A DNA stretch of 64,000 bases from Neoroseomonas oryzicola (lineage in GTDB: Bacteria > Pseudomonadota > Alphaproteobacteria > Acetobacterales > Acetobacteraceae). The stretch is taken from NCBI RefSeq assembly GCF_012163135.1, contig NZ_JAAVUP010000001.1, positions 868,001 to 932,000 on the forward strand, in the 5' to 3' direction. The translations under genes were made by a program, and so were the position numbers. Below the pieces are notes generated by a model. It had not been told where the DNA came from. It worked only from the letters and a program-made list of their open reading frames with translations, and did no database searches. Shown one piece after another: positions 25,541 to 47,867 of the stretch. How positions within the stretch are numbered: position 1 is the first letter of the stretch; the number at the start of each line of letters is the position of its first letter.

Positions 25541-25542
25541 GG
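25537..25542. repeat. Left target-site duplication TCTAGG
   Basis: TCTAGG lies directly outside the left IS end and is repeated exactly at 26583-26588. It fits the NCTAGN target described for IS481 of Bordetella. The minus-strand stop codon TAG of the transposase is within it. Confidence 0.85.
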
Positions 25543-29827: not shown

Positions 29828-29831
29828 GCGC

Positions 29832-30728
29832 CTATTTCTCCGTCTCGGTCAGGCCCTTGATGAACCAGCGCTGCATCAGCACCACGACGGCGACCGGCGG
29901 CAGCAGGGCGAAGACCGCCGTGGTCATGATCAGGTTCCACTCGTTCTGCGTGTCGCCGATGCCGATCATCTTGGTCAGGCCGACGATGACCGTCTCGAGG
30001 TCGCGGTTCGACACCATCAGCAGCGGCCAGAGATACTGGTTCCAGCCATAGATGAAGAGGATGACGAAGAGCGCCGCGATATTGGTGGTCGATAGCGGCA
30101 GCACCACGTCCTTGAAGAAGCGCAGCGGGCCGGCGCCGTCGACCTTCGCCGCCTCGACATACTCGTCCGGGATGGTGAGGAAGAACTGGCGGAACAGCAG
30201 CGTTGCCGTGGCGGATGCGATCAGCGGCAGCGTCAGCCCGGTCATGGTGTCGATCAGGCCGAGATCGGTCATCACCTGGAAGGTCGGGATGATGCGCACC
30301 TCGACCGGCAGCATCAGGGTGATGAAGATCATCCAGAAGAACACCATGCGCAGCGGGAAGGAGAAGAACACCACCGCGAAGGCCGAGAGCAGGGAGATCG
30401 CGATCTTCCCCACCGCGATCAGGATCGCCATGATGAGGCTGTTCCACAGCATGGTGCTGGCCGGCACGGCGAAGGTGTTGCGCCCGCCGCCGCCCTGGAA
30501 CCAGGCGGTCGTGTAGTTGTGGATGGCCTCCGTGCCCGGCAGCAGGGGCACGTCGCCGCGCCCGATCGTGTCAGTATCGTGGGTCGACCCCACGATGGTG
30601 ATCCAGATCGGCAGCGCGAAGACCGCGATGCCGAGGATGAGGGCCAGGTGCGTGAGGAACCGCTCCCGCGCCTTGCGGCGGCGGGAGGCGGCGGCCAGCG
30701 CCTCGACGTCGATGGTCGCGGTGGGCAT
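29832..30728 (-). CDS. ugpE: Carbohydrate ABC transporter permease (UgpE type)
   Basis: A 298-residue MalG/UgpE-like inner-membrane permease with six hydrophobic helices. The EAA loop that docks onto the ATPase is [25 protein letters not shown], and the GGGGRNTF and [12 protein letters not shown] segments match UgpE. Its ATG overlaps the upstream UgpA-type stop by one base (TGATG), so the permease pair is coupled. The last residues [12 protein letters not shown] are the usual GLTxGAVKG-type ending. Confidence 0.9.
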
Positions 30729-31609
30729 CAGTAGTGCACCCGGCGCTCGATGAAGCGGAACTGGATCGCCGTGAGCGCGATGACGATGACCATCAGGATC
30801 ACCGATTGCGCCGCTGAGGAGCCGAAGTTGAGGTTCTGCACGCCGTCGACATAGACCTTGTAGATCAACGTCTCGGTCGCGTTGCCCGGGCCGCCGCGCG
30901 TCAGGGCGTGGATGACGCCGAAGGTGTCGAAGAAGGCGTAGACCAGGTTCACCACCAGCAGGAAGAAGGCGGTGGGCGAGAGCAGCGGGAAGATCACCGT
31001 CCAGAAGCGCCGGAACGGCCGCGCCCCGTCGATCGCGGCGGCCTCAAGCACCGAGGTCGGGATCGACTGCAGCCCCGCCAGGAAGAAGATGAAGTTGTAG
31101 GAGACCTGCTTCCACGCCGCCGCGATCACGACCATCGTCATGGCCTGCCCGCCGTTCACCCGGTAGTCCCAGTCGATGCCGATGGCACCGAAGGCGCGGC
31201 CCACCAGCCCGATGGAAGGGTGGAAGATGAACAGCCACAGCACCGCCGCGAGCGCGGGTGCGACGGCATAGGGCCAGATCAGCAGCGTCTTGTAGAGACC
31301 CGCGCCGCGGATGTGCTTGTCCGCCTGCACCGCCAGGAACAGCGCCGCCCCCAGCGCCAGCGCCGCCACCGAGGAGGAGAAGATCACGGTGTTCCACGCG
31401 GCGTTGAGGTAGAGCGCATCCCCGAACAGGTCGAGGAAGTTCTCGAAGGCGACGAACTCGGTGCGCAGGCCGAAGGCGTCCTGGCGCAGGGTCGACTGCC
31501 AGACCGCCATGCCGGCGGGCCAGAAGAAGAAGACGATCGTCACCGCCAACTGCGGCACGAGCAGCAGGTACGGCAGCGCGACGCCGCGAAAGATGACCTT
31601 CTTCCTCAC
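30728..31609 (-). CDS. ugpA: Carbohydrate ABC transporter permease (UgpA type)
   Basis: A 293-residue MalF/UgpA-like permease with about six membrane helices and the EAA loop [26 protein letters not shown]. It starts at GTG 31609, preceded by GGAGGATACC, and 28 bases after the receptor gene. The phrase [23 protein letters not shown] near the end is typical for UgpA. It pairs with UgpE to form the membrane channel. Confidence 0.9.
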
Positions 31610-31637
31610 GGTATCCTCCGCGACGTCGCGCGCGCCA

Positions 31638-32987
31638 TCACCCGCGGTTCGCGCGTTCGAAATTGCGCAGCACCTGGTTGCCGCGCGTGGTGGCGTTCGC
31701 GAGCGCCTGCTGGGCGTTCTGTTGGCCCTGGAAGGCGCGCTCGAACTCCTCCTCCATGATGGTGCGGATCTCGACGAAGCCGCCCAGGCGGATGCCGCGG
31801 CTGTTGTCCGTCAGCGTGCCGCCGCCGCGCAGCAGCTGCTCGATCGGCACGTCGGCGCCGGGGTTGTCGCGGTAGAAGCCCTTCTCGCGCGCGATGGCGT
31901 AGGAGGCGCGGCGCACCGGGACATAGCCGGTGTCCATGTGCCACTGCGCGTCGACCTCGGGGTTGCTGAGGTACTTGAAGAACTCCGCCACGCCCTGGAA
32001 CTCGTCGCGCGAACGGCCGCCGCCCGCCGCCGGACCCTTGTTCATCACCCACAGGCTGGCGCCGCCGATGATGGAGTTGATCGGCGCATTCGGCGTGCCC
32101 TGGTAGTAGGGCAGCATGGCCACGCCCCAGTCGAAGCGCGCTTCGCGCTGCACGCGGGCGCGGAAGCCGGAGGAGGTGAACATGATCGCCGCCTCCCCGT
32201 TCGGGAAGGCAGGCTCGCCGGCGTTGTTGCGGCCGCCGTAGCGGAAGCTGCCGTCCTTCTGCCAGTCGACCAGCGCCTGCATGTGGCGCTGCACCAGCGG
32301 GTTGTTGATCCGCAGCTCGGTGCCGAGGCCGCCGAACCCGTTCGCCAATGTGGCCAGCGGGATGTCGTGGATGGCCGAGAAGTTCTCGATCTGCGCCCAG
32401 GTCAGCCAGGCGGTGCTCATCGGCACCGCGGTGCCGCCGCCGGCCTTCAGCTTGGGCAGGATCTCGGCGACGCCCTGCCAGGTCTCGGGGAACTTGTCGG
32501 GGTCGACGCCGGCGCGGCGGAAGGCGTCCTTGTTGTACCAGACGATGGTGGTCGAGCTATTGAACGGCATCGACATCATCCGCCCGTCCGACAGGCTGTA
32601 GTAGCCGCGCACGCCGGGCAGGTAGTCGTTGAAATCGATCTGCACGCCGGTCTCGGCCAGCAGCTCGTGCACCGGCTTCACGGCGCGCCCGGCGCCCATC
32701 ATGGTGCCGGTGCCGACCTCGAACATCTGCACGACATGGGGGGCGTTGTTGGCGCGGAAGGCCGCGATCGCCGCGACCATCGTCTCGGGGTAGGAACCGC
32801 GGAAGGTCGGCACCACCCTGTACTTGGTCTGCGTGGCGTTGAAGTCGGTCGCGCGCTTCTCGAGCATGCCGCCCAGCGGCTGCGCGAGGCCGTGCCAGAA
32901 CTGGATCTCGATCGGCTGCGTCTGGCCGATGGCGGGCGCGGCGACGCCCAGGGACATCGCCCCGGTCAGCAGTGTACGGCGGTGCAT
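31638..32987 (-). CDS. ugpB: Extracellular solute-binding protein (UgpB type)
   Basis: A 449-residue periplasmic receptor with signal peptide [22 protein letters not shown]. The mature protein starts [27 protein letters not shown], a hallmark of UgpB, and has [24 protein letters not shown] (here starting YRVVPTF) and [22 protein letters not shown]. UgpB binds glycerol-3-phosphate and glycerophosphodiesters. The four genes ugpB-ugpA-ugpE-ugpC run in the standard order for the family. It lies 73 bases downstream of the diaminopropionate ammonia-lyase gene. Confidence 0.9.
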
Positions 32988-33060: not shown

Positions 33061-34236
33061 TCACTTCGATGAAGGGGTGTGTCCGACCAGGCGCGCATAG
33101 ACCTCCGGGTCGGTCGCGCCCTCGGTCCCGAACAGCAGGACGCGGCTCGTCTCCTCGAGGCCGAGGGCGGTGCGTGCGAAGGGCTCCCGCGCCGCCAGAA
33201 GCAGGGCGGCGAGGCCCGCGACGGCGCTTTCCCCGGCCACCACGGCCGGCTGGCGCGCGGCGAGCACCTTCATGCAGTCCACTGCGCTGCCATCCGTCAC
33301 CGCCGCGAAGGCGAAGGCCCCGCGCTCGAGCTCCTGCCAGGCGAGGAGCGAGGGCTCCCCGCAGGCGAGGCCCGCCATCAGCGTGTCGAGGTCGCCCTCG
33401 ACCGTGGTCGGCTGGCCGGCCTCGGCGCTGGCGAGCAGGCACGCCGCCTTGTCGGGCTCGGCGACGATGACCTTCACCGCGGTGCCGAAGCGCGACCGCA
33501 TCTGCGAAGACACCGCGGCGGCGACGCCGCCGACGCCGCCCTGGATGAAGACATGGGTCGGCGCCCCGCCGAACTGGTCGGCGGCCTCGTCGGCCATGAC
33601 GCGATAGCCCTGCATGACGTCGCGCGGCACCTCGGTGTAGCCGGGATAGGAGGTGTCGGAGACGACGAACCAGCCATTGGCGTCAGCCTGCTTCTGGGCT
33701 TCCCGCACCGCGTCGTCGTAATTGCCGGGGACGACGCGGATCTCCGCACCCCATTTCGCGATCGCGTCGCGGCGGCCCTGGCTGACATGCTCATGGACGA
33801 AGATGACGCAGCCCGCCCCGAAGCGCTGGGCGCCCCAGGCGACCGAGCGGCCATGGTTGCCGTCCGTCGCGCAGCAGACGGTGATGGCGCGCGTCGCATC
33901 CTTGTGGGTGCCGTCCATCAGCTCGGCCGCGGTCGCCGCATTCGCGACGCCGCGCCGGGCGAGCTCCGCCTGCAGCAGGCGCATGACGGCATAGGCGCCG
34001 CCCAGGGCCTTGAAGGAGCCGAGGCCGAAACGGCCGCCTTCATCCTTGTAGGCCACGCGCGCGACGCGCGCGGCCGCGGCGGCGTCGGGCAGCTCGACCA
34101 GCGGGGTCGGGGCGTAGCCGGGCCAGGAGGCGATCTCCGCCTTCGCGCGGCGGAAGCCGGAATCCGGCAGCACCACCACGCCCGGCGTGCCGTGGCGCCG
34201 GTTCACGAGGAAGCGGAATGGGGTGGTCGGGATCAT
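33061..34236 (-). CDS. dpaL: Diaminopropionate ammonia-lyase
   Basis: A 391-residue PLP enzyme of fold type II that converts 2,3-diaminopropionate to pyruvate and two ammonia. The Schiff-base lysine is Lys76 in GLGSFKALGGAY, preceded by YKDEGGRFG; the phosphate loop is QGGVGG, and the CCATDGNHGRSVAWGAQRFGA and SDTSYPGYTEVPRDVMQGY blocks are specific to DpaL. Length and motifs match the E. coli enzyme. It is divergent from the DenD-like gene and may be first in the minus-strand transcript with ugpBAEC; released ammonium could feed glutamine synthetase. Confidence 0.92.
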   Translation of the reverse strand: MIPTTPFRFLVNRRHGTPGVVVLPDSGFRRAKAEIASWPGYAPTPLVELPDAAAAARVARVAYKDEGGRFGLGSFKALGGAYAVMRLLQAELARRGVANAATAAELMDGTHKDATRAITVCCATDGNHGRSVAWGAQRFGAGCVIFVHEHVSQGRRDAIAKWGAEIRVVPGNYDDAVREAQKQADANGWFVVSDTSYPGYTEVPRDVMQGYRVMADEAADQFGGAPTHVFIQGGVGGVAAAVSSQMRSRFGTAVKVIVAEPDKAACLLASAEAGQPTTVEGDLDTLMAGLACGEPSLLAWQELERGAFAFAAVTDGSAVDCMKVLAARQPAVVAGESAVAGLAALLLAAREPFARTALGLEETSRVLLFGTEGATDPEVYARLVGHTPSSK

Positions 34237-34375
34237 GGTCGGCCCTCCGGTCGCGGGCCATGTGGCACGGGAAGCGGACGGCAGGCAAAGGTGCCAGGCC
34301 AGAGGCTAGGCCCCAGGCGCGGTCCGGTGTAGGCGAAGGCGACGGGGCCCGGCCCCGGGGAGGACAGGAGCGACG

Positions 34376-35359
34376 ATGCGCATCACGATTCTCGGCGGCG
34401 GCGGTTTCCTCGGCAAGAAGCTGGCGGCGCGCCTGGCCCGCGACGGCCGTCTCGGGGGCAAGGCGATCACCGGGCTGACGCTGTTCGACCTGGCCGCGCC
34501 GTCCGCGCCCTCCGCCCCCTTCCCCGTGCAGTGCCTCGGCGGCGATGTCGCGGATCCGGCGGCGGTCGCGGCGGCGATCCCCGCGGGCACAGAGGTGGTC
34601 TTCCACCTCGCCGCCGTGGTCAGCGCGGCGGCCGAGGCGGATTACGACCTCGGCATGAAGGTGAACCTGCACGGCACGCTCGCGGTGCTGCAGGCCTGCC
34701 GGGCGCTCGGGACGAAGCCGCGGGTGATCTTCACCTCCTCCGTCGCCTCCTTCGGCGGCGGGCAGGATGCGGTGGTGCCGGATGATGGCCGCCAGGTGCC
34801 GACCAATTCCTACGGCGCGCAGAAGGCGATCGGCGAATTGCTGCTGCAGGACGCGACGCGCAAGGGCTTCCTCGACGCCGTCAGCATCCGGTTGCCGACG
34901 GTGATGGTCCGTCCGGGACGGCCGAACAAGGCGGCGTCCTCCTTCGTCTCGGCCATCCTGCGGGAACCGCTGCTCGGCCTGTCCACGGACTGCCCGGTGC
35001 CGCCGGAATTCGCCGTCTGGATCTGCTCCCCGCGCAGCGCGATGGAGTGGTTCCTGCACGCGGCGACCATGGACACCTCCTCCATGGGCGTCGACCGCGC
35101 CATCAACCCGCCGGGGCGCAGCGCGACGGTGGCCAAGATGCTCGGCGCGCTGGAAGCCGTCGCCGGCCGGGCGGCGCGCGAGAAGGTCGGCTTCGTCTTC
35201 GACAAGGAGGTCTTCGACATCGTGGTCGGCTGGCCCGCGGCCTTCGAGGCCGAGCGCGCCCGGCGCCTCGGCTTCGCCGAGCAGGAATCGCTCGAGGACC
35301 TGGTGCGCGCCTTCATCGAGGACGACCTCGCGGCGACGAAGGCGGAGCGGGGGCTCTAG
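34376..35359 (+). CDS. denD: NAD-dependent epimerase/dehydratase, DenD-like (D-erythronate dehydrogenase)
   Basis: A 327-residue extended SDR. The Rossmann motif is GGGGFLG at the N-terminus (MRITILGGGGFLGKKLA), VVFHLAAVVSAAAEADYDLGMKVNLHGT follows, the catalytic serine is in FTSSVASFGG, and the active-site YxxxK is SYGAQKAIGELL. The stretch RLPTVMVRPGRPNKAASSFVSAILREPL is characteristic of DenD, which oxidises D-erythronate in tetronate catabolism. The partner genes (OtnK, OtnC/I) are not in the window, so the assignment of substrate rests on similarity alone. It shares a CTAG stop with the thioesterase. Confidence 0.8.
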   Translation: MRITILGGGGFLGKKLAARLARDGRLGGKAITGLTLFDLAAPSAPSAPFPVQCLGGDVADPAAVAAAIPAGTEVVFHLAAVVSAAAEADYDLGMKVNLHGTLAVLQACRALGTKPRVIFTSSVASFGGGQDAVVPDDGRQVPTNSYGAQKAIGELLLQDATRKGFLDAVSIRLPTVMVRPGRPNKAASSFVSAILREPLLGLSTDCPVPPEFAVWICSPRSAMEWFLHAATMDTSSMGVDRAINPPGRSATVAKMLGALEAVAGRAAREKVGFVFDKEVFDIVVGWPAAFEAERARRLGFAEQESLEDLVRAFIEDDLAATKAERGL

Positions 35360-35956: not shown

Positions 35957-36009
35957 ACCAAAGAAGGTTGAGGGGGCGCGGGGGAGAAGTTCCCTTCTCC
36001 CCCGCTTCT
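35957..36009 (-). repeat. Terminator-like repeat unit, copy A
   Basis: Reading the minus strand away from the M20 stop codon, a 12 bp perfect stem (35978-36005; GCGGGGGAGAAG / CTTCTCCCCCGC, loop of four) is followed by GCCCCC and the sequence AACCTTCTTTGG. Copy B after the CE4 gene at 44411-44460 has the same order: stem with GAAGGGAACTTC core, GCCCCC, AACCTTCTTTGG, then TTGGG. It is probably a dispersed terminator-like element placed after genes. Confidence 0.65.
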
Positions 36010-36014
36010 TCGTC

Positions 36015-37193
36015 TCAGAGCCCCGCCTGGTCGATCCGCAGGATGGCCCGCGCCATGGCCTGCGCCCGTGGCACGAAGCTCTCGACCTCGAGGTATTCCT
36101 CCGGGCTGTGCGCCAGCCCGCCGACGGGCCCCACGGCGCAGAGCGTCGGCGCGCCGAGTGCGGCGGTGAATCCGGAATCGGCGCAGCCCCCGGTGAACTC
36201 CCCTTCCACCTTCAGCCCCGTATCGGCCGCGGCCGCCTGGTAAACCTTGAACACGCGGTCCGAGGCCGGCGTCGGGTTCAGCGGCAGGAACTCGCCCTTG
36301 ATGGTAAGCACGGACTTGGTGCCGGGCACATAGGCGCGCGCGACGATGTCGTGGATCTTGCCCATGATCTCGTCGCGGTCGGCGGGCTCGACGTAGCGCA
36401 GGTCGATCTGGAACTGGCAGTTCGGCGCCGTGGTGTTCACCGACTGCCCGCCCTGGATCAGCCCGACATTGAGCGTGATGCCGCGCTTGAGGTCGGTCAG
36501 CGCATGGATGGCGACGATCTTGTTCGCCGCCTCCCCGATGGCGCTGATTCCGGCCTCGAAATTGCCGCCCGAATGCGCGGCCTTGCCTTCGATGTCGACG
36601 ACGCTGAACACGCCGCCCTTGCGCGCCTTCACGACATTGCCCGAGGCGCGGCCCGGCTCGCTGTTGAAGACGACGCGCGCGTTCTTCGCCTCGGCCTCGA
36701 TGACGGGGCGGCCTTCGGGACTGCCGATCTCCTCGTCACCGGTGAAGAGGCCGACGAGCGGGCCTGGCGCGCCGCCGAACTTCGCGAAGGCAGCGAGGAC
36801 GAACATGTTCATCACGATGCCGGCCTTCATGTCCGCGACGCCGGGGCCGTAGGCGCGCCCGCCCTTGATCGTGAAGGGGCGACGCTCCGGCTCCCCCTTC
36901 GGGAAGACGGTGTCGCGATGGCCCATCAGCACGATGTTGCTGCGCTGGTTGCCGGTGCCGAGGGCATGGCCGCCCTCGACGATGCCGCGGATGCAGTCGC
37001 CGTGATTCTGCTGCGGCAGCGTCTCGGTGGGGATGCCGTGGGAGGCGAGGAAGCGCTTCACCTGCGCGCCGGTGCGGTCGACGCCGTCCTTGTCGTAGGA
37101 CCCGCCATCGGTGTTCACCATCTCGGCGAGTTCGGCGAGCATCGCGTCCTTCTGCGATGCCAGCCAGGCGGTGATCTGCGCTTCCGTGCTCAT
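36015..37193 (-). CDS. M20-family metallopeptidase (glutamate carboxypeptidase-like)
   Basis: A 392-residue zinc hydrolase of the CPG2/M20 type. Metal and catalytic motifs are MGHRDTVFPKG, GVADMKAG, TGDEEIGSPEG and the late GLAHSPEEY; AAHSGGNFEAGISAIGEAANKI marks the dimerisation domain. Of two near starts, the ATG at 37193 is eight bases from AGGAG and is preferred to the one six bases upstream. No signal peptide is seen. It is the last gene of the RutA-led operon, ends at the terminator-like repeat, and could release an amino acid or N-carbamoyl group late in that pathway. Confidence 0.88.
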   Translation of the reverse strand: MSTEAQITAWLASQKDAMLAELAEMVNTDGGSYDKDGVDRTGAQVKRFLASHGIPTETLPQQNHGDCIRGIVEGGHALGTGNQRSNIVLMGHRDTVFPKGEPERRPFTIKGGRAYGPGVADMKAGIVMNMFVLAAFAKFGGAPGPLVGLFTGDEEIGSPEGRPVIEAEAKNARVVFNSEPGRASGNVVKARKGGVFSVVDIEGKAAHSGGNFEAGISAIGEAANKIVAIHALTDLKRGITLNVGLIQGGQSVNTTAPNCQFQIDLRYVEPADRDEIMGKIHDIVARAYVPGTKSVLTIKGEFLPLNPTPASDRVFKVYQAAAADTGLKVEGEFTGGCADSGFTAALGAPTLCAVGPVGGLAHSPEEYLEVESFVPRAQAMARAILRIDQAGL

Positions 37194-37249
37194 GGGCATT
37201 ACTCCTTGCGGGGCGGAGGATCGCACCGCCGCCGCACCGCGCAAGGGGC

Positions 37250-38620
37250 TCAGAGCGACGGCCAGCGATGCGCCCAGGGATGCGCGGCCTCGTATTGCCG
37301 CGCGAGCGCGATCAGCCTCCAGTCGGCGCCAAAGGACCCGATCAACTGCACGCCGATCGGCAACCCGTCCGGCGACGGATCGACCGGGAGGTTCAGCCCC
37401 GGTAGGCCGCCGGCATTCACGATGCCAGTGAAGGCGCGGTGATGGGGTGGGCCGAACTGCGTCGCATCCCAGGGCAGCGCACCGGCCGAGGGCGTGACGA
37501 TCACGTCCCAGGACCGGAAGGCGACGGCGAACTGGGCCTGCACTTCGCGGAAGGCGGTCAGCGCCTCGATGTAGTCGGCGACGGTGAAGCCCGCCGCCTG
37601 GTCCATCATCTCCTCGTAGATCGCGCCGATGCGGCCGCGCCAGTCCCGGTCGCGCAGCAGCCAGAAGAGACCCGAGGCCGTGAGCACCGGCCAGTGCCGA
37701 TCGAACAGTGCGAGGTCCACCGGCATCGCCCCTTCCTCGACGCGATGCCCGAGCGCGGCGAGGTTGCGCGCGGCGGCGGCGCAGGACGCCGCGACGGGCG
37801 CGTCCACCGGCCAATCGCCGAAGCGCGGGACATAGAGGATGCGCAGCCCCGCGGGCGGCGGCGGTTCCTCATGCGGGCCGGGCACACCGACGGAAAGCCG
37901 ATCCTCGTCGAGCGGCCCCTGGATGACCGACAGCACGGTCGCGAGGTCGTCCACCGTGCGCGCCAGCGGCCCGATCACCTCCGCATCGTCGAGAATCACC
38001 GGCAGCCCGTTGCGCCGCGCGACGCGCCCGGCCGTCGGCTTCAACCCCAGCAGCCCGCAATGCGAGGCCGGCCGACGGATCGACCCGCCCCCATCGGTGC
38101 CGAGCGTCACCGGCCCGAAGCCCGAGGCAACCGACGCCGCGCCACCGCCCGTCGAAGCGCCCGGCGTCAGCGCCGTATTCCAGGGATTGCGCGTGGTGCC
38201 GAAGGACTTGGTGTCGCAGTTTCCGCGCCCGAGCGTGAACTCCGACACGTTGGTCTTGCCGAGGATCACCGCGCCACTTGCGCGGAGCCGCGCGACCGGC
38301 GTCTCGTCGGCCTCGGGGACGTAGTCGAGGTAGAGCTCGCTGCCCCAGGCACAGCGCAGCCCGGCGACGGTGATGTTGTCCTTGATCGAGACCGGTACGC
38401 CATCCAGCGGCCCGAGCGGCCGGCCGGCGGCGAAGCGCGCATCGGCCGCCTTCGCAGCCGCGATCGCGCCCGCCTCGTCCAGCGTCGCGAAGGCGTTCAG
38501 CTTCGGGTTCGCCGCGGCGATGCGGTCGAGAACCGCCCGCAGCGCCGCACCGGGCGTCAGGCTGCCCTCGCGGTAGCGCGCGGCGAGCGCCGTCGCCGGT
38601 AGCTGCCAGATCTCGGTCAT
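37250..38620 (-). CDS. Amidase (amidase-signature family)
   Basis: A 456-residue amidase-signature enzyme. The Ser-cisSer-Lys triad is visible as Lys80 (VPVSIKDNI), Ser156 (TPGASTGGGAAS) and Ser180 (GTDGGGSIRRPAS). The cis-serine motif has Ala and Thr where many relatives have Gly and Ser. Family members hydrolyse carboxamides; the one here is not GatA because gatC and gatB are absent. It is followed by the M20 gene 56 bases on and preceded 27 bases upstream by the Bug receptor, so an amide brought in by that receptor may be its substrate. Confidence 0.9.
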   Translation of the reverse strand: MTEIWQLPATALAARYREGSLTPGAALRAVLDRIAAANPKLNAFATLDEAGAIAAAKAADARFAAGRPLGPLDGVPVSIKDNITVAGLRCAWGSELYLDYVPEADETPVARLRASGAVILGKTNVSEFTLGRGNCDTKSFGTTRNPWNTALTPGASTGGGAASVASGFGPVTLGTDGGGSIRRPASHCGLLGLKPTAGRVARRNGLPVILDDAEVIGPLARTVDDLATVLSVIQGPLDEDRLSVGVPGPHEEPPPPAGLRILYVPRFGDWPVDAPVAASCAAAARNLAALGHRVEEGAMPVDLALFDRHWPVLTASGLFWLLRDRDWRGRIGAIYEEMMDQAAGFTVADYIEALTAFREVQAQFAVAFRSWDVIVTPSAGALPWDATQFGPPHHRAFTGIVNAGGLPGLNLPVDPSPDGLPIGVQLIGSFGADWRLIALARQYEAAHPWAHRWPSL

Positions 38621-38647
38621 GCTGCCCCCTTCGTGTCGAAAGGGAGC

Positions 38648-39616
38648 CTACTCGATCTTGCCGAGGGCGCGCACCACGCGGACCAGGCGCGCCGCGTCCT
38701 CCCCGTAGAAGCGCTGGAAGGCCTCGCCATCGCGATAGTCGAGCGTGTTGCCGCTGGCTTCCATGGCGCGGCGGAACTCGGGATCCGCCGCAACCTGGCG
38801 CGAGGCGTCGCGGATGCGCGCGGTCACCGGCACCGGCGTCGCTGCCGGGGCGAAGAGGCCGACCCAGATGTAGAACTCGCAGTCCGGGAAGCCCTTCTCG
38901 ATCAGCGTCGGCACCTCCTCGAAGCCGGCGAGGCGCGTGCGCCCCCAGGTCGCGATGGGCCGCAGCGCGCCGCTGCGCACATGCGGTGCGATCGGTCCGG
39001 GCCCCGAGGCCATGCAGTTCACCTGGCCGGCGAGCAGCGCGGTCAGCGCGGGTCCGCCGCCCTGGAAGGGCACGTGCAGCATGTCGAGCCCTGCCGCCTG
39101 GCTGAACTGCGCCATCGGCACATGCAGCGCCGAGTAGTTGCCCGCGGATGAGTAGGAGACTGCGCCGGGCCGCCGCTTCACCTCGGCGATGAACTCCTCG
39201 ATGGTCCGGATCGGGCTCGCGGCCGGCACCACCAGCACCGTGGGATCGGCCGAGAACAGCGCGATCGGCGCCAGCATGTCCGGCGTGTAGGTCGGCTCAC
39301 GCCCGTTCACGCGCGCGGCCTCCGGCAGCAGCGCCATGGAGGAGAGCGCCATCAGCAGCGTGTAGCCATCGGGCGTCGCGCGCGCGACCGCGGCATTGCC
39401 GATCGCCCCCGCCGCCCCGCCGCGATTCACGATCGGCACCGCGACGCGCCAGATCCGTTCCAGCGCCGCGGCCACCGGTCGCCCCACCACATCCGCCTGC
39501 CCGCCCGGCGGGAAGGCGACGACCATGCTGACGGGGCGCGAGGGAAATACCTCCTGCGCCCGCGCCGCGCCCGCCAAGGCGGCGGCGGCGGAGCCGATCA
39601 GGACGCGACGCTTCAT
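38648..39616 (-). CDS. Bug-type TTT substrate-binding protein
   Basis: A 322-residue periplasmic receptor, MKRRVLIGSAAAALAGAARAQ, with the Bug blocks FPSRPVSMVVAFPPGGQADVVGRPVAAAL, IVNRGGAAGAIG (the usual VENRxGAGG slightly altered) and LHVPFQGGGPALTALLAG in place of HVPYRG. The two altered loops form the ligand-binding site in Bug proteins, so specificity probably differs from the other four here. It sits inside the RutA-led operon between the FAH-family gene and an amidase, which suggests it imports the substrate of that operon. Confidence 0.92.
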   Translation of the reverse strand: MKRRVLIGSAAAALAGAARAQEVFPSRPVSMVVAFPPGGQADVVGRPVAAALERIWRVAVPIVNRGGAAGAIGNAAVARATPDGYTLLMALSSMALLPEAARVNGREPTYTPDMLAPIALFSADPTVLVVPAASPIRTIEEFIAEVKRRPGAVSYSSAGNYSALHVPMAQFSQAAGLDMLHVPFQGGGPALTALLAGQVNCMASGPGPIAPHVRSGALRPIATWGRTRLAGFEEVPTLIEKGFPDCEFYIWVGLFAPAATPVPVTARIRDASRQVAADPEFRRAMEASGNTLDYRDGEAFQRFYGEDAARLVRVVRALGKIE

Positions 39617-39652
39617 TCTTGTTTCCTCCCGGTTGGTGTCGTTCGCCTCAGG

Positions 39653-40528
39653 TCACGCGACGGGGTTCTCCAGCACGCCGATGCCCGGCACCTCGATGCG
39701 CACCTTGTCGCCGGGCTTGAGGAACTTCGGCGGCGAGAAGCCGATGCCCACGCCGGCCGGCGTGCCGGTCGCGATGATGTCCCCCGGCTCCAGCGTGATC
39801 GCCGCGCTGATGGTCGCGATCAGGGTCGGGATGCCGAAGATCAGGTCCTCGATCGGCGCGCGCTGGCGCAGTTCGCCATTCACCCAGGTCGAGATCGCGA
39901 GCTTCGGCGGCGTGCCGGCGGCATCGGCGGTGACGATCGCCGGGCCCATCGGGCAGAAGCCGTCGATGCCCTTGCCGAGGATCCACTGGCGATGCTTGTG
40001 CTGCAGCGTGCGCGCGGTGACGTCGTTGACGATGGTGTAGCCGAAGACGTGGGCGTAGGCGTCGGCCTCGCTGATGCCGCGGCCGCCCTTGCCGATGACG
40101 ACGGCGATCTCGCCCTCGTAATCCGTGCTGTTCGAGGAATCGAGGAAGGACGGGATCGGGTCGTGCGGACCGATCACGCTGGTGGGCGGCTTGGAGAAGA
40201 CGACCGGCGCCTCGGGCACCACTTCCTTCGCCGTGGCGTCGAAGCCGCTGTTCGCGAATTCCTTCGCGTGCTCGTGGTAGTTCTTGCCGACGCAGAAGAT
40301 GTTCTTCGCCGGGCGCGGGATGGGAGCGAGGATCACCGCACCCTCGGCGACCGGCGCCTTCCCTTCCGCCGCGCGCGCGGCGGCCAGCGCGGCGTCGCCA
40401 CCCGCGATCAGCGCCAGCATGTCGCGCGGCAACGCCGCATCCGCGGCCGCGAGGTCGAGCACCTTGCCCGCCTCGTCCAGCGCGCCGAGGCGCGTGCCCT
40501 TCCCGTCCCTGAACGTCACCAGACGCAT
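39653..40528 (-). CDS. Fumarylacetoacetate hydrolase (FAH)-family protein
   Basis: A 291-residue FAH-superfamily enzyme with an N-terminal cap and the catalytic FAH fold from FCVGKNYHEHAKEF on. The divalent-metal ligands are in DYEGEIAVVIG (two glutamates) and VNDVTARTLQ (Asp), and GPAIVTADAAGTPPKLAISTWVNGELRQ and ATGTPAGVGIG are the usual substrate-loop blocks. Members hydrolyse C-C bonds of acylpyruvates, or act as ureidoglycolate lyase or decarboxylases. In this operon it could process an oxo-acid or ureido product of ring opening. Confidence 0.9.
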   Translation of the reverse strand: MRLVTFRDGKGTRLGALDEAGKVLDLAAADAALPRDMLALIAGGDAALAAARAAEGKAPVAEGAVILAPIPRPAKNIFCVGKNYHEHAKEFANSGFDATAKEVVPEAPVVFSKPPTSVIGPHDPIPSFLDSSNSTDYEGEIAVVIGKGGRGISEADAYAHVFGYTIVNDVTARTLQHKHRQWILGKGIDGFCPMGPAIVTADAAGTPPKLAISTWVNGELRQRAPIEDLIFGIPTLIATISAAITLEPGDIIATGTPAGVGIGFSPPKFLKPGDKVRIEVPGIGVLENPVA

Positions 40529-40542
40529 GAAAATCCTCCCGA

Positions 40543-40851
40543 TCAGCGCTTGCGCACGAATTCGGTGCGCAGCACCAAGCCCTTGATGCCTTCGTAGCGG
40601 CAGTCGATCTCCTCGTCATTCTCCGTCAGGCGAATGGACCGGATGACCGTGCCCTGCTTCAGGGTGGTGCTGGTCCCCTTCACCTTCAGGTCCTTGATGA
40701 GGGTGACCGAATCACCATCCGCCAGGACATTGCCGGCCGCATCCCGCACGCGGGACTTCGCGGCCTCGGCCGCCGCGGCGGCCACCTCCGAGGCCGGGCG
40801 CCATTCGCCGCTGGCCTCGTCATAGACGTAGTCGTCACCGTCGCCGGACAT
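40543..40851 (-). CDS. PhnA/YjdM-like protein without the zinc ribbon
   Basis: A 102-residue protein. The C-terminal two thirds, from VRDAAGNVLADGDSVTLIKDLKVKG to EGIKGLVLRTEFVRKR, match the PhnA (YjdM) domain well. The first 20 residues, MSGDGDDYVYDEASGEWRPA, keep the YxYE/EW spacing of the usual N-terminal zinc ribbon but contain none of its cysteines. The family, named from a phosphonate locus, has no firmly established function. It starts three bases after the upstream amidase stop and is 14 bases from the FAH gene, so it is a true operon member. Confidence 0.85.
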   Translation of the reverse strand: MSGDGDDYVYDEASGEWRPASEVAAAAAEAAKSRVRDAAGNVLADGDSVTLIKDLKVKGTSTTLKQGTVIRSIRLTENDEEIDCRYEGIKGLVLRTEFVRKR

Positions 40852-40854
40852 GCG

Positions 40855-42270
40855 TCAGCCCCGCTGCGGCGCGGTTTCGGCGGGATTGGCGAGCGGCAGC
40901 GTCGCCGCGCGTTCCAATGCCCGCGCGCCGCGGAAGGCCAGGTCGTCGCGATAGAGAGGTGCCACCACCTGCACCGCGCGCGGCATGCCCTCCCCGTCCA
41001 GCGCCACCGGCACGCTGATCGCGGGCTGGCGGGTCAGGTTGAAGGCGAAGGTCCAGGGCGCCCAGTCGCGCCACAGCGACAACTCGGGCTGCACCGTCGG
41101 CTGGTCGGCGTCGAAGGCGGCGGTCGGCGTGCAGGCTGTCAGCACCAGGTCGTAGCGCTGGTGGAAGCGCGCCATGGCGTGCGCGGCCTCGAGCCTCATG
41201 GCCTCGGCCGCCAGGTAGTCCACCGCGGACATGTCCCCGTTCCGGCGCGCCACCTCGAGGATGCCGGCATCGAGCAGCCCTTGCTTCTCCTCCGGGATGG
41301 TCGCGACGACGCGCGACAGGGCGACGCCCCAGACGCGGCCGAAGATCGCACGGGTATCGGGCAAGCCGGGATCGGCTTCCTCGACGATCGCGCCCTGCTC
41401 GGCGAGCATCTGCGCCGCACCCGCCAGCACCGCCTCGCCATCCGCGTCGAGCGGCGGCTCGAAGCCCATGCGCCGCACCACGGCGACGCGCATGCCCGCG
41501 ACGCCATCCTCGATCCCCTGGCGCCAGTCGCGCGGTTCGTCCGGCAGGCAATAGGGATCGCGCAGGTCGAATCGCGCCATGGCCGAGAACATCAGCGCCG
41601 CGTCGCGCACCGTGCGCGTCATCGGCCCGGCCACCGCGACATGCCCGAAGGCGCCCAACGGCCATTGCGGGATGCGCCCGAAGGAGGGCTTCACGCCGAC
41701 CAGCCCGCAGAAGGCCGCCGGGATGCGGATCGACCCGCCGGCATCGGTGCCGATGTGCAGCGGCCCGAAGCAGGCCGCGCCCGCCGCCCCGGCGCCGGAG
41801 GACGACCCGCCCACCGTGCGCTGCGGATTCCACGGATTGCGCGTGATGCCGTTCAGCGGGCAGTCGCCCGGCGACTTCCAGCCGAACTCGGTCGTCGTCG
41901 TCTTGCCGAGGATGACGGCGCCGCTTTCCTTCAGCCCCATGACCGAGGGCGCGTCCTCGGTCGCCGGCGTCGTGTCCGTCGTACGGCTGCCGCGGCGGGT
42001 CGGGAAGCCCGCCAGGTTCAGCAGGTCCTTCACCGTCGCCGGCACGCCGTCGAGGGGCCCGATCGGCCGCCCGGCGGCCCAGCGCGCCTCGCTCTCGCCC
42101 GCGGCTTGCAAGGCGCGCGGGTTCATCGCGGCGAAGGCGTTGACCCAGGGGTTGTAGCGGGCGACGCGCTCCATCACGGCCTTCAGCGCCTCGACCGGCG
42201 ACAGCGCACGGCGGGCGTAGAGGCCGAGGAGCGTCTCGGCGGACATCAGGGCGGGATCGGTGTCGGACAT
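40855..42270 (-). CDS. Amidase (amidase-signature family)
   Basis: A 471-residue amidase-signature enzyme with catalytic Lys81 (VPATVKDLLNLAG), cis-Ser156 in GGSSSGAGAAG, and nucleophile Ser180 in GTDAGGSIRIPAAFCGL. The sequence differs throughout from the second amidase of the operon, so the two probably act on different amides and are not a recent duplication. It lies 45 bases downstream of the RutA-type gene, in the place where rutB (an amidohydrolase) lies in the E. coli pathway, and could hydrolyse the ring-opened product. Confidence 0.9.
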   Translation of the reverse strand: MSDTDPALMSAETLLGLYARRALSPVEALKAVMERVARYNPWVNAFAAMNPRALQAAGESEARWAAGRPIGPLDGVPATVKDLLNLAGFPTRRGSRTTDTTPATEDAPSVMGLKESGAVILGKTTTTEFGWKSPGDCPLNGITRNPWNPQRTVGGSSSGAGAAGAACFGPLHIGTDAGGSIRIPAAFCGLVGVKPSFGRIPQWPLGAFGHVAVAGPMTRTVRDAALMFSAMARFDLRDPYCLPDEPRDWRQGIEDGVAGMRVAVVRRMGFEPPLDADGEAVLAGAAQMLAEQGAIVEEADPGLPDTRAIFGRVWGVALSRVVATIPEEKQGLLDAGILEVARRNGDMSAVDYLAAEAMRLEAAHAMARFHQRYDLVLTACTPTAAFDADQPTVQPELSLWRDWAPWTFAFNLTRQPAISVPVALDGEGMPRAVQVVAPLYRDDLAFRGARALERAATLPLANPAETAPQRG

Positions 42271-42315
42271 GGGTCCACCATGTCTCCCGATCCCGCGCCG
42301 TTCAAGCCGGGGCGG

Positions 42316-43401
42316 TCATTCCGCGGCCAGCGGCAGCCTGTCCCTGCGGCATTCCATCAGCGGCTGGATGCGCTTGCCGAAGGTGTCGAGGCCTTCGAGG
42401 AAGTCGTCGAAGGTCAGCATGATCCCCTTCACGCCGGGCATGGTCGCGATCTCGTCCATCATCCGCGCGACATTGGCGTAGGACCCGACGAGCGTGCCCA
42501 TGTTCCAGTTGACCGGCGTGGGGGAGCGCAGCACCGCCGCAGCCATGGAGGTATCGGCCGCCGTGGTGTCCTCGGCCGCCTTGCCGTGCAGGTAGGCGAG
42601 CGCTTCCTTGTCGGCCCCCTCGACGTAGAGCTTCCACTTGGCCCAGGCGGCCTCGTCGGTTTCCTCGGCGATGATCATGTAGAGCATGTAGGCGCCGATA
42701 TCGCGGCCGGTCTTCCTGCCCGCCTCGAGCACGCGGGCGGGGACGGAGGCCGCCTTGGTGGGCTCGTTCACGCCCTCGCCGAGGCAGAAATTGTAGTCGC
42801 AGAGCTCGGCCGCGAAGGCCATGCCGCGGTCCGACTGGCCGGCGGCGACGACCTTGACGCGCTCCTTCGGCCGCGGCGACAGGACGCAGCCGTCCATCTG
42901 GAAGTAGTCGCCCTTGAAGTCGGACAGGCCGGTCTCCCAGAGTTGGCGCATGATGGTCACGTATTCGGTGCTGTAGTCGTAGCGCTTGGCGAAATGCTGG
43001 TCGCCCGGCCACAGCCCCATCTGGCTGTATTCCTTCGCATGCCAGCCCGAGACGATGTTCACGCCGAAGCGGCCGGGGGCGATGGAATCGATCGTGCTCG
43101 TCATGCGGGCCACGATCGCCGGCGGGATGGTCAGCACCGCGACCGACGCGAACAGCTTGATCCGCGTCGTGACCGCGGCGATGCCCGCCATGAGCGTGAA
43201 GCTCTCGAGCCCATGGTCCCAGTACTCGGTCTTCCCGCCGAAGCCGTGCAGCTTGATCATCGAGAGGGCGAAGTCGAAGCCGTAGCCCTCGGCCTTCTGC
43301 ACCACCGCCTTGTTGAGCTCGAAGCTCGGCATGTACTGCGGCGAGGTGGCGGAGATGATCCATCCGTTGTTGTTGATCGGGATGAAGACGCCGATGTCCA
43401 T
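42316..43401 (-). CDS. rutA: RutA-type flavin-dependent monooxygenase
   Basis: A 361-residue luciferase-like FMN-dependent oxygenase closely matching RutA, the pyrimidine monooxygenase that opens uracil between N3 and C4. Diagnostic stretches are [89 protein letters not shown] and [18 protein letters not shown]. The ATG at 43401 gives the family N-terminus; an upstream in-frame extension is arginine-rich and rejected. The rest of a rut operon (rutB-rutG) is missing; instead it heads an operon with amidases, an FAH enzyme and a Bug receptor. RutA needs a flavin reductase (RutF), not seen here. Confidence 0.9.
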
Positions 43402-43508
43402 GCTGCGGCTCCGCTGGCTGTGGACCGCCGCGCGCCGGGCACGCGCGGCGGATTGACCGCGCCGTTGCCGCAATTACCGTGCCATCCGCGGTTGCACGGA
43501 GATCACCA

Positions 43509-44408
43509 ATGAGCGACGACACGGCGAAGCCCTGGGAATGGCCGGAACCCCGCTGGCGCCACATCGTCGGCCGCGCCCGCGCGGGCCGCTCCCTCGCGCC
43601 GAAGGCATGGCCGGGCGGGGCGCGCTGCGCCGTCTCGCTGTCCTTCGACGCGGACCACGAGACCATCCCGCTGCGCGATTCCGACGAAAGCCCGATGCGC
43701 ATCAGCCAGGGCCAGTACGGCAACCGGCAGGGCGTGCCGCGCATCCGCGCGCTGCTCGACCGGCACGGCGTACGCGCCTCCTTCTTCTATCCCGCCGTCT
43801 CCGCCCTGCTGCACCCGGCCGAGGTGCGCGCGGTGGCCGATGAGGGGCACGAGATCGGCATCCATTCCTGGATCCACGAGGCCAACACGCAATTGCCGCC
43901 CGGGGTGGAGCGCGACCTGACCTTCCGCGCCGCCGACACGCTCGAGAAGATCGCCGGCAGGCGCCCCGTGGGCATCCGCACGGCCTCCTGGGACTTCTCG
44001 GTCGACACCATGGACATCATCCGCGAGCTCGGCCTGCTCTACGATTCCTCGCTGATGGCGGATGACGATCCCTATGAGCTCGAAGTCCAGGGCGAGCCGA
44101 CCGGCATCGTGGAACTGCCGCCCGAATGGATCCGCGACGACGCCGTCTACTTCAACATGGTGCGCTTCTCGGCGCTGCGGCCCTACACGCCGCCCTCGGC
44201 GGTCGAGGAGATCTTCCGCGCCGAGTTCGACGGCGCCTATGCCGAAGGGGGGCTGTTCCTGCTGACCATGCACCCGCACGTCACCGGGCACCGCAGCCGC
44301 ATCGCGCTGCTCGACCGGCTCGTCGCCTACATGAAGGCCCAGCCCGGCGTGTGGTTCGGCACGCATGAGGAAGTAGCGCGCTGGTGCGCGCAGCAGGGCG
44401 GGCTGTGA
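43509..44408 (+). CDS. Polysaccharide deacetylase-family (CE4) hydrolase, HpPgdA/imidase-like
   Basis: A 299-residue NodB-homology protein starting after GGAGATCACCA. SLSFDADHETIP carries the first catalytic/metal aspartates, EIGIHSWIHE has the metal histidines (H..H) of motif 2, and GIRTASWDFSVDT and LTMHPHVTGHRSR supply later motifs. The first half, APKAWPGGARCAVSLSFDADHE, recalls the branch that includes Helicobacter PgdA, PuuE-type allantoinase and cyclic-imide hydrolase. It is cytoplasmic (no signal peptide), which argues against peptidoglycan as substrate. It is divergent from rutA, 107 bases away, and may take part in the same pathway as a cyclic-imide or ureide hydrolase. Confidence 0.82.
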   Translation: MSDDTAKPWEWPEPRWRHIVGRARAGRSLAPKAWPGGARCAVSLSFDADHETIPLRDSDESPMRISQGQYGNRQGVPRIRALLDRHGVRASFFYPAVSALLHPAEVRAVADEGHEIGIHSWIHEANTQLPPGVERDLTFRAADTLEKIAGRRPVGIRTASWDFSVDTMDIIRELGLLYDSSLMADDDPYELEVQGEPTGIVELPPEWIRDDAVYFNMVRFSALRPYTPPSAVEEIFRAEFDGAYAEGGLFLLTMHPHVTGHRSRIALLDRLVAYMKAQPGVWFGTHEEVARWCAQQGGL

Positions 44409-44527: not shown

Positions 44528-45520
44528 TCACGTCACGACGATGTTGTACTGACGCGCCACGGCAGTCCATTCGCCGATCTGCTGGTTGATGATCGCGACG
44601 AAATCCGCCCCCGTCGGCGGCGGGTTGCGCGGCAGGGTCTGCAATTCCTCGAACCGCGCCATCAGTTCCGGACGCTGCACCATCGTCGGGATCAGCGCCG
44701 TCAGCCGCTCCACGATCGGCTGCGGCAGGTTCTTCGGCGCCGACAGCCCAAGCCACTGCGCCGAGGTCAGCTTCGGATAACCAAGCTCAGCGAAGGTCGG
44801 CACGTTCGGGAAGGCCGGCAGCCGCTGCGGGGAGGAAACCGCCAGCGCGCGCAGCACCCCATCCTTCATCATCTGCACGTTGGTCGTGATCGGGTCGATC
44901 ATCGACTCGATCTGGTTCGCCATCAGGTCCTGCATGGCAGGCGCCGAGCCGCGATAGGGCACGTGGTCCAGGTTCGGCGCATTCGCCTCCCCCGTCAGCA
45001 TCGCACCCAGCAGATGCGGCGCCGAGCCGATGCCCGACGACCCGAAGCGCACCGGCCGCGTCCGCGCCGCCACCAGGTACTGGTCCAGGGTCCGGTAGGG
45101 CGAATCCGCCTTCACCAGCAGCACGTTCGGCGCCTCGACCAGCAGGCCCATATGGGTGAAGTCGGCGACCGGATTGAAAGGCAGCGTCGGCATCGTCGCC
45201 GTCGAGAAGACATGCACCGAGGCATGGCTGACGAGCAGCGTGTAGCCATCCGCCGGCTGCTTCGCGACGAAGTCGGTGCCGATCACCCCGCCGGCGCCGG
45301 CACGGTTCTCGACCACCACGGTCTGGCCCAGCGCCTGGGACATCACCGGCGCCATCAGGCGGCTGACGGTGTCGACCAGCCCGCCCGGGGGAAACTGGGC
45401 GACCAGGCGGATCGACCCGCGGGTCGGCCAGGCGCCGGACTGCGCGGAGGCGACCCGCGGCGCCGCCAGCGGCCCCAGCGCGCCGGCGGCCGCGAGCCCG
45501 AGAAGTGAACGACGGTTCAT
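44528..45520 (-). CDS. Bug-type TTT substrate-binding protein
   Basis: A 330-residue periplasmic receptor from MNRRSLLGLAAAGALGPLAAPRVASAQ. The Bug signatures are RLVAQFPPGGLVDTVSRL, VVVENRAGAGGVIGTDFVAKQPADGYTLLVSH and DHVPYRGSAPAMQDLMANQ. An in-frame extension of 35 residues upstream lacks a signal sequence and is rejected. No transporter membrane genes are adjacent. It is the fifth Bug gene of the window and is distant from the tandem pair in sequence. Confidence 0.92.
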   Translation of the reverse strand: MNRRSLLGLAAAGALGPLAAPRVASAQSGAWPTRGSIRLVAQFPPGGLVDTVSRLMAPVMSQALGQTVVVENRAGAGGVIGTDFVAKQPADGYTLLVSHASVHVFSTATMPTLPFNPVADFTHMGLLVEAPNVLLVKADSPYRTLDQYLVAARTRPVRFGSSGIGSAPHLLGAMLTGEANAPNLDHVPYRGSAPAMQDLMANQIESMIDPITTNVQMMKDGVLRALAVSSPQRLPAFPNVPTFAELGYPKLTSAQWLGLSAPKNLPQPIVERLTALIPTMVQRPELMARFEELQTLPRNPPPTGADFVAIINQQIGEWTAVARQYNIVVT

Positions 45521-45656
45521 GAACTTGCTCCCTGTCAGGGCGACGTGGCCGCCGGATGACCAAGAAGCAGGCATTGCTTCGGCGCAGACCCCGGCGGCCC
45601 GGCGCTCAGGACCGGGGGATCGCAAGCCCCGTGCCGCGCGGGCCGGGGCGCGGATG

Positions 45657-46118: not shown

Positions 46119-47690
46119 TTATTGCGCGAGAGCGGCGCTCCAGGGGCTCATCGCGTCGGTGATGCCCTCCCGCGTGCCGTCCTTCGCGATGCGGATCAGG
46201 TTCGGGCAGGCGAAGTTCACCGGCATGACGGCGTGCTCCACCTCGGTCACCTCGGCATCGCGGGCCAGGGCGGCGATGGTCTCGGCCCCCAGGCGCCGGT
46301 CGGCCGTCACCCCGTCCGGCCCGGAGACATCGAGGCGGGGGTGATGCGCCGCCGCCTCGGGGCTCATGCCGAAATCGGCGACGTAGGACAGCATCTGGAA
46401 GACCGAGGCCATGATGCGTCGCCCGCCCGAGGCGCCGAGCGCAATCGAGGGCGCATCGCCCTCCGCGCCGATCACCGGGCACATGTTGGTCAGCGGCCGC
46501 TTGCCCGGGCCGATGGCGTTCTTCGCGTCCGGCCGCGGGTCGAACCACATGATGCCGTTGTTCATCAGCACGCCCGAGCGCGGCAGCACGACGCGGCTGC
46601 CCATCGAGGACAGCAGCGTCGTCGTCATCGCCACCATCATCCCGTCCTTGTCGCAGACGGTCAGGTGGGTGGTGCAGGATTCCGCCGCCTTCGGCTCGGC
46701 ATCGCCAAGGCCAGCGAGCCGGTCCGCATAGGCCGCGCGCATCACGCGGGCGAGCTGCGCATACCAGGCCGCCGAGGGCGCCTTGCCCGAGAAATCCGCC
46801 CCCCGCATCCCGTCGAGCACGGCGAGCAGCGTCGGGGCCGCGGTCAGGCCATTGGCCAGGAACAGCCGCTTGCCGCGCCATTCGGCCTCGAGCGCCGGCT
46901 TCACGATCGCCTTGCAGCCCATCAGGTCGGTCGCGTTGATCGGCGATCCCATGTCGCGGAAATCCGCGAGGAGCTCGCCCGCCACCTCGCCTTCGTAGAA
47001 GTCGCGCAGGCCGGCATGGGCCAGGCGCTCCAGCGTCTCGGCCAGCTTGCCCTGGCGGAAGAAGCCGGGGCTGCCCTGGTAGGGCGGCACCGGCGGCAGC
47101 CCGCCCGGCAGGTAGATGCGCGCGCTTTCGTCATACAGGCGCAGGACGGACGCGCTGTTGGCGACCTTCAGCGTGGTGAACCAGTCCTGAGCGAGGCCCC
47201 GCTTCGCCAGCGCGATGGCCGGCGCCATCACCACCGACAGCGGCAGCCGGCCGTGCTGGGCATGCAGTTCGGCATAGCCCGCGACCGAGGAGGGAATCGC
47301 GAAGGACATCGGGCCATGAACGTTGCGGTCCTCGAACACCTCGGGCCAGGTGAAGAGGTCGGCCTTCTGCCGCCCGGTCATCGGATAGGCCGAGGGATCC
47401 AGCGCATGGGGCGACACCGGGCCGAAATCGAAGGTCTGCGGCGTGAGGTCCGGCCCTGCGACCTGCGTGAAGCCGATGCCGCCGAGGCCCGAATTCCACG
47501 GCTCCACCACCGCCAGCGCGAAGGCGGTCGCGACGGCCGCATCCGCCGCGGTGCCGCCTTCCTCGAGGATCGCGATCCCCGCCTCGGCGGCGTCCCGGGC
47601 CTGGGATGCGACCATGCCGCGCTTCCCAGTGGCTCCGGGCTTGGTCACCTGCCAGTGCTGGGTCACATGCGGGGGCGGTGTCCAGGCCAT
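46119..47690 (-). CDS. ggt: Gamma-glutamyltransferase family protein
   Basis: A 523-residue N-terminal-nucleophile hydrolase of the gamma-glutamyltranspeptidase family. The autoprocessing threonine is expected at about residue 340 in [14 protein letters not shown], which splits the precursor into large and small subunits, and [19 protein letters not shown] and GASGGRRI are in the small subunit. The start [11 protein letters not shown] has no signal peptide, so unlike E. coli Ggt it may be cytoplasmic, as in the acylase or glutathione-hydrolase branch. It is divergent from glcB; an in-frame extension upstream is rejected. Confidence 0.88.
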
Positions 47691-47867
47691 GGCGGCGATC
47701 CTTGTCTCGTTGAGCCGCGGGAGCCTTGCGCCGCGGCGCCCCGAGGGCAAGCCCCGCTGGCCCCGGAATTGCCACGCCGGACCCGCGTTTGCCCCTCGGC
47801 GGCTTTCCCCCTAGGTAGCGGCGCAAACACGCCCCCAGGGGGCACGAGCGTTCAGGAGATCAGCACC

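Follow-up and report, generated by a model that had tools for sequence, protein, structure and literature searches.

A CE4–amidase gene module with an optional RutA in Neoroseomonas oryzicola

We analyzed a locus headed by a RutA-family monooxygenase gene in a stretch of 64,000 nucleotides from Neoroseomonas oryzicola (contig NZ_JAAVUP010000001.1, positions 868,001 to 932,000; hereafter the window, whose numbering is used throughout). The locus is best described as genuine, conserved and apparently uncharacterised: a module built on a CE4-fold hydrolase and an amidase (Ami1), with an optional RutA, and not a new system in kind. As RutA is missing from many genomes that keep the other two genes, we favour, with moderate confidence, a catabolic module centred on CE4 whose substrate would be a small ring, either a cyclic amide, an imide or a ureide. 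The genes concerned are the following.

43509–44408, plus strand: CE4-fold hydrolase, divergent, core member (PF01522, Polysacc_deac_1, 54.6 bits; solved relatives 3rxz, 3qbu (HpPgdA) and 3cl6 (PuuE))
42316–43401, minus strand: RutA-family FMN monooxygenase, accessory member (TIGR03612, 600.8 bits against a cut-off of 498.3)
40855–42270, minus strand: Ami1, amidase-signature hydrolase, core member (PF01425; NCBIfam NF004815, 521.3 against a cut-off of 506)
40543–40851, minus strand: PhnA/YjdM-like small protein, patchy (PF03831, 108.4 bits; TIGR00686, 83.8 against a cut-off of 80.2)
39653–40528, minus strand: FAH-family enzyme, frequent core member (PF01557, FAA_hydrolase; best solved relative 8sky)
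38648–39616, minus strand: Bug1, TctC-type solute receptor (PF03401, 199.2 bits)
37250–38620, minus strand: Ami2, second amidase-signature hydrolase, patchy (PF01425; 33% identical to Ami1)
36015–37193, minus strand: M20 hydrolase, carboxypeptidase-G2-like (PF01546 and PF07687; closest solved relative 1cg2)

The layout is as the initial annotation described it. The seven minus-strand genes follow each other from RutA to M20 with gaps of 45, 3, 14, 36, 27 and 56 bases, and CE4 is divergent. A literature search, thin on subscription journals, yielded no description of this combination, which the initial annotation had not recognised, and no publication reporting RutA alongside amidases from Roseomonas-type bacteria or a half-amidase precedent. 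The surrounding genome comprises 5.3 Mb, and the nearest named relative among the compared loci is Neoroseomonas marina JC162 (RutA 98%).

Conservation of CE4 and Ami1 and patchiness of RutA

RutA is an optional add-on to a stable CE4/Ami1 core, which is usually accompanied by FAH, Bug and M20. In a sample of 35 genomes of the genus, source genome included, we found Ami1 (E 1e-180) in 32, CE4 (E 1e-100) in 33, and RutA of the window type (≥73% identity) in 14. RutA lies between CE4 and Ami1 in 12 genomes and elsewhere in the genome in two (G164, G709). In 17 genomes, 16 without RutA and G164, CE4 and Ami1 are separated by less than 500 bases where the window has RutA. The other six are G103 (no CE4), G701 and G705 (no Ami1), G709 (neither), G704 (CE4 and Ami1 on separate contigs), and G190 (1.56 kb between them).

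Much more of the locus may be kept in the absence of RutA. In G220 and G225 (loci L271 and L272), CE4, Ami1, PhnA, FAH, Bug1, and M20 are retained at 79–94% identity and RutA is absent, and CE4, Ami1, FAH, Bug1, and M20 without RutA are also found in L291 and L244. A decayed RutA between CE4 and Ami1 was ruled out for the gaps of G220, G225, and G190, as these three gaps yielded only chance-like matches of at most 22 bases; since they hold no RutA remnant, clean gain or loss of RutA looks likely. When the state, defined as RutA at ≥70% within 2.5 kb upstream, is mapped onto a tree built from 49 Ami1 proteins, parsimony requires at least eight changes, at least three of them forced by starred branches; the tree was built quickly and leaves 12 forks open, many of its rows came from loci found through RutA, and the rows L198 and L201 were scored as lacking RutA though a more distant RutA is nearby.

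The reverse situation is also common. As close relatives of the window RutA we considered the 82 tips at a path distance of at most 0.9 from it on a FastTree tree; 54 of them had at least 11 kb of flanking sequence, and 28, near the ends of a contig or stretch, were left out. Within 9 kb of RutA, with cutoffs of 58% for Ami1 and 60% for CE4 or FAH, 24 of the 54 loci had none of the three genes. Ami1 and FAH were present together in 18 (15 of these also with CE4), Ami1 without FAH in seven, and CE4 alone in five. In L115 and L124, Ami1 was found further along from RutA.

These data bear directly on the initial annotation, which read the locus as a seven-gene pathway led by RutA. A dedicated pathway of seven steps for one N-heterocycle, in which the amidases, FAH, and M20 process the product of RutA, would agree with the tight packing of the genes, with the 12 genomes that have RutA between CE4 and Ami1, and with Belnapia-like relatives, which also have RutA immediately upstream of Ami1. 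However, the core stands without RutA in L271, L272, L291, and L244, RutA stands without amidase and FAH in the 24 loci mentioned above, and PhnA and Ami2 are patchy. We have therefore rejected it as the main reading and consider it improbable. The conservation of seven genes plus CE4 that the initial annotation proposed to look for is seen for CE4 and Ami1, and often for FAH, Bug1, and M20, but not for RutA, PhnA, and Ami2. Still less probable is the absence of any shared pathway, with independent amide, peptide, and transport genes co-oriented by chance. PhnA, Ami2, FAH, RutA, and the Bug genes do come and go, but CE4 and Ami1 are close to each other in 29 of the 35 genomes, with or without RutA between them, and the order Ami1-FAH-Bug1-M20 recurs beyond the genus. 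Moreover, CE4, RutA, and Ami1 stand in the same order in 12 of the 35 genomes, so this gene order is not due to chance.

Properties and relatives of RutA

The window RutA is 61.8–62.8% identical to RutA of E. coli and looks active by motif. The dioxygen-pocket residues L65, S105, N134, V136, and F224 (LSNVF) are kept, as is W139. For E. coli RutA, one report gives ∼80% of the activity as retained in T105S (PMC7662398). One modelling study places E292 on the si side of RutA (PMC10005588). This position is occupied by G in the window RutA and in 80 of the 82 close relatives; as G is shared by four of 12 canonical RutA proteins, it is no marker of a new substrate. Seven columns distinguish the 12 canonical from 49 module RutA proteins; T108V, T137S, and A220C, which are three of these, are no more than four residues away from a motif position. 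According to one review, few side chains contact the pyrimidine. Three of the 144 aligned RutA rows (L205, L229, L236) were misaligned at the motif columns and grouped with other paralogues.

Compared with the rut operon of E. coli (RutA–G), the window RutA is an equivalog by its NCBIfam score and has the same dioxygen pocket, but the locus carries an amidase, FAH, M20, Bug, and CE4 in place of RutB–G. The initial annotation had noted that the rut partners were missing. At the locus this is correct, as a scan of the window and a few other stretches found no rutB–G partner beside RutA (RutC, D, E, and G were not searched for genome-wide). Elsewhere, the genome carries unlinked genes for a RutB-like protein (281.7 bits, under the cut-off of 377.95) and a RutF-like protein (C1:756678-757151; 212.2 bits, under the cut-off of 254.75; 57% to E. 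coli RutF). The RutB-like protein (L261:3584-4354, contig C10) is 52–57% identical to RutB of rut operons (54% to that of E. coli), is sister to the canonical RutB clade in a small tree, and keeps D24, K91, and C166 (E. coli RutB numbering), which we take to be the catalytic residues.

It could thus be argued that RutA performs the ordinary ring opening of uracil or thymine, that the RutB-like and RutF-like proteins complete the pathway in trans, and that the position of RutA in the operon is incidental. The score of RutA, well above the equivalog cut-off, the features of the RutB-like protein, and its presence (E 1e-60) in seven of the 35 genus genomes, all with RutA, speak for this. However, both partners fall under their cut-offs, no other rut gene was matched beside the RutB-like gene in the seven genomes, and seven of the 14 RutA-positive genomes lack it. 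Since the same seven genomes also rank first by RutA identity, the link may be a single event and the co-occurrence may reflect one shared inheritance. On balance, we regard this explanation as rather unlikely, but as a serious competitor of our own reading.

RutA relatives are numerous in this lineage. Sampling at the level of the order gave 69 genomes with RutA matches (E 1e-150) out of 299, and one of the 69 (G278) had at least six, the best six candidates per genome being scored. In the neighbourhood of RutA, CE4-fold genes are more frequent than their density would lead one to expect. The expected numbers of CE4-fold genes within 7 kb were derived from 93 PF01522 matches in six genus genomes (33.7 Mb); whereas this density comes from a profile, the links come from tblastn searches with five CE4 queries, and related loci are not independent. 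A CE4-fold gene was found near close RutA in 28 of 54 loci (2.2 expected) and near other RutA paralogues in nine of 41 (1.6 expected; the 41 include L205 and L236), with none in ten canonical rut loci (0.4 expected). The nine consist of five loci of one lineage from the same genus, two tips that both come from locus L233, and the loci L205 and L212, in each of which the match is distant.

The five loci represent a second RutA lineage of the genus (L036:9010-16551; L038, L044, L046, L048), and in all of them RutA is accompanied by an isochorismatase-family hydrolase and by two CE4-like genes in tandem. In L036, the second gene of the pair has no Pfam match at 1e-5 and is 34% identical to the first, and genes for an ABC transporter (ATPase and binding protein) are also present. 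Two CE4 genes also occur in L142:102-7616, together with two tandem RutA genes, MmgE/PrpD, and a 2OG oxygenase, and in L233:3371-9689, which has three tandem RutA genes; both loci contain an asparaginase-like gene, recognised by eye. The paired CE4 genes are 24–28% identical to the window CE4, so RutA lineages are associated with CE4 genes of two subfamilies, that of the window type and that of the tandem pair.

In another type of neighbourhood (L147:2491-13522 and, in part, L145, L154, and L161), RutA adjoins an isochorismatase-family hydrolase; L147 also has a deaminase-fold protein, an oligopeptide-type binding protein, and MobA/MobB-like genes, the latter recognised by eye. This set suggests a nucleobase-like substrate.

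CE4 and the neighbouring genes

Among solved structures, the window CE4 best matches 3rxz, a chain labelled simply polysaccharide deacetylase, followed by HpPgdA (98.5 bits) and structures of the PuuE type (76.7–80.1). The HpPgdA/PuuE type is described as a CE4 fold with a small closed pocket (PMC3084791). In a plasmid collection, CE4 relatives were found in 32 records (E 1e-50), 18 of them at ≥63% identity and 14 below. We read the neighbourhoods of 14, namely eight of the 18 and six of the 14; the unread records at ≥63% include five without annotation under the match and five annotated ones. In all eight loci at ≥63%, a creatininase-family gene (five plasmids, from Agrobacterium, Sulfitobacter, Sagittula, Rhizobium, and Alloyangia) or hydantoinase A/B (three, from Paroceanicella, Methylobacterium, and Roseomonas marmotae) is nearby. 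These partners make it probable that CE4 hydrolyses a cyclic amide or imide, in agreement with the imidase-like role that the initial annotation assigned to it.

The plasmid clusters from Rhizobiales and Rhodobacterales (creatininase-family, SDR, asparaginase or HyuA/B) resemble the window locus in having CE4, at 63–67% identity, with a ring-opening partner and a transporter. They differ in that the partner is creatininase or hydantoinase A/B, not RutA, and in the absence of any Ami1 match at E 1e-100 from the plasmid collection. Plasmid origin of the whole module was rejected on the latter ground, although RutA and CE4 relatives do occur on plasmids. In the Alloyangia plasmid (L281:11253-14882), genes annotated as urate hydroxylase PuuD and allantoinase PuuE are found a few genes away from the CE4-creatininase cluster.

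Both amidases carry a Lys, cis-Ser, Ser motif set (VKDL/GGSSSG/TDAGGS in Ami1, IKDN/GASTGG/TDGGGS in Ami2), which we take to be the catalytic set of amidase-signature enzymes. The FAH-family enzyme contains DYEGE and NDVTAR, with acidic residues that presumably bind metal; its best solved match is 8sky (256.9 bits), which we take to be YisK, although other FAH subfamilies match too. What we take to be the catalytic motifs of M20 and CE4 are found in the respective window proteins. A motif check detected no CxxC in the PhnA/YjdM-like protein. Among the loci scanned, only the window and N. marina have Ami2 directly between Bug1 and M20.

Three further features adjoin the locus.

44528–45625, minus strand: Bug2, second TctC-type receptor, often adjoining CE4 (PF03401, 188.8 bits)
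46119–47750, minus strand: gamma-glutamyltransferase-family (GGT-family) hydrolase, frequent neighbour (PF01019; TIGR00066, 237.1, below the cut-off of 357.85)
35978–36005: perfect hairpin of 12 pairs 3' of M20, possible operon end (RNA fold −31.8 kcal/mol, z −3.49)

To characterize the neighbours of Ami1, we used 50 loci, one for each distinct sequence, with a window of 9 kb around Ami1; many were found through RutA, which is thus over-represented, and all counts are lower bounds, as the simple gene caller misses genes. RutA was present in at least 28 loci, GGT-family genes in at least 27, FAH in 26, M20 in 22, CE4 in 20, Bug2 in 19, and Bug1 in 18, all of these likewise being minimum numbers. 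At least 23 loci have a large protein that we take to be malate synthase G. Within the family, 158 of 299 genomes have Ami1 relatives (E 1e-140), but when 289 genomes were sampled across the class, the best Ami1 match outside the source genome was 52% identical. In several Roseococcus-type loci (L050–L052, L114), RutA is paired with a Bug2-like receptor and a GGT-family gene.

The GGT-family gene is not a canonical GGT, given its score. Oxamate hydrolase has a solved structure, and this assignment was also rejected, as the 13 solved-structure matches (E 1e-20) were named GGT, cephalosporin acylase or CapD. The hairpin is at most a possible operon end, since its T-rich tail is on the plus strand only, which is not the strand of the operon, and terminator-like sites are no commoner than in shuffled sequences (two by scan, against a mean of 3.7). 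A scan for sigma-70-type promoters, little informative here, gave no sites (0.2 in shuffles). In the same window, genes for diaminopropionate ammonia-lyase and D-erythronate dehydrogenase (33061–35359) are each found near ten of the 50 Ami1 loci. An IS481-family transposase (25538–26572) adjoins two Bug-type receptor genes and the ugp glycerol-3-phosphate transporter operon (28757–32987).

Possible route and its significance

Gene content, the conservation of CE4 and Ami1, the independent presence or absence of RutA, and its intact dioxygen motif are observed; all substrates and the order of steps in the CE4-centred module are inferred. The ligand of the Bug receptors would be the substrate itself or a carboxylate product. 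CE4 would open the ring hydrolytically, yielding a half-amide, and Ami1 would then release ammonia from the amide that remains. The FAH-family enzyme may then tautomerise, decarboxylate or hydrolyse the resulting oxo or enol acid; if the ring were carboxylated, ring opening and deamidation could, speculatively, yield an enol oxo acid suitable for a FAHD-like enzyme. A side product, an N-acyl or N-carbamoyl amino acid, would be hydrolysed by M20. RutA would be an optional second ring-opener, using flavin-N5-peroxide attack on the amide carbonyl to open rings that CE4 cannot. The stepwise catabolism proposed in the initial annotation is thus partly retained, as the locus probably serves a cyclic amide, imide or ureide and is unlike the rut operon, but a leading role of RutA is not supported.

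A parallel is provided by nicotinate breakdown in Aspergillus nidulans, where, as described, the CE4-fold cyclic imidase HxnM is followed by the FAAH-like (amidase-signature-type) amide hydrolase HxnN (PMC9304392). Going by that description, HxnM and HxnN resemble the window CE4 and Ami1 in having a CE4-fold ring hydrolase and then an amidase, and differ in being fungal, in the substrate chain, and in lacking RutA and FAH. For the later step, FAHD enzymes, including B. subtilis YisK, are reported to be oxaloacetate tautomerases (PMC10825186), and a literature search on FAH as ureidoglycolate lyase yielded nothing useful.

Several observations weigh against a CE4-centred module of this kind. 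FAH, Bug1, and M20 are not fixed in the core; in particular, two loci of the same genus, L290 (G190) and L292 (G164), have CE4 and Ami1 without FAH, Bug1, and M20 in the 9 and 12 kb stretches examined. It may also be that RutA, together with the unlinked RutB-like gene, does no more than serve the use of uracil. Despite the shared fold and the sequence matches, CE4 scores 83 bits against the PuuE (TIGR03212) cut-off of 424.6, and was rejected as a PuuE allantoinase. Four of the six plasmid loci read below 63% identity have no creatininase-family or hydantoinase partner, one of them having an LLM-class flavin oxidoreductase, and the other two have weaker partners (dimethylformamidase-like with penicillin acylase, and amidohydrolase). 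Finally, as syntenic clusters recur, the eight loci at ≥63% may amount to two or three types of cluster and should not be counted as eight independent cases.

More tentatively, the RutA family of Acetobacteraceae/Roseomonadaceae could have radiated into general amide oxygenases paired with CE4 cyclic amidases. RutA, creatininase-family enzymes, and hydantoinase A/B would then be interchangeable second ring-openers on a CE4 core, with the window RutA acting on a ring other than uracil, e.g. a cyclic imide or a pyrimidine bearing a carboxyl or hydroxyl group. If so, each plugged-in ring-opener would widen the set of rings usable by one downstream route.

As a model enzyme of flavin-N5-peroxide chemistry, RutA has so far been tied, in the literature found, to uracil and thymine. 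A lineage with at least six RutA-family matches in one genome, many in non-rut surroundings, offers a natural panel for what else flavin-N5-peroxide cleaves. Moreover, the plug-in pattern of RutA on the CE4-amidase core provides testable strain pairs, that is, close relatives with and without RutA.

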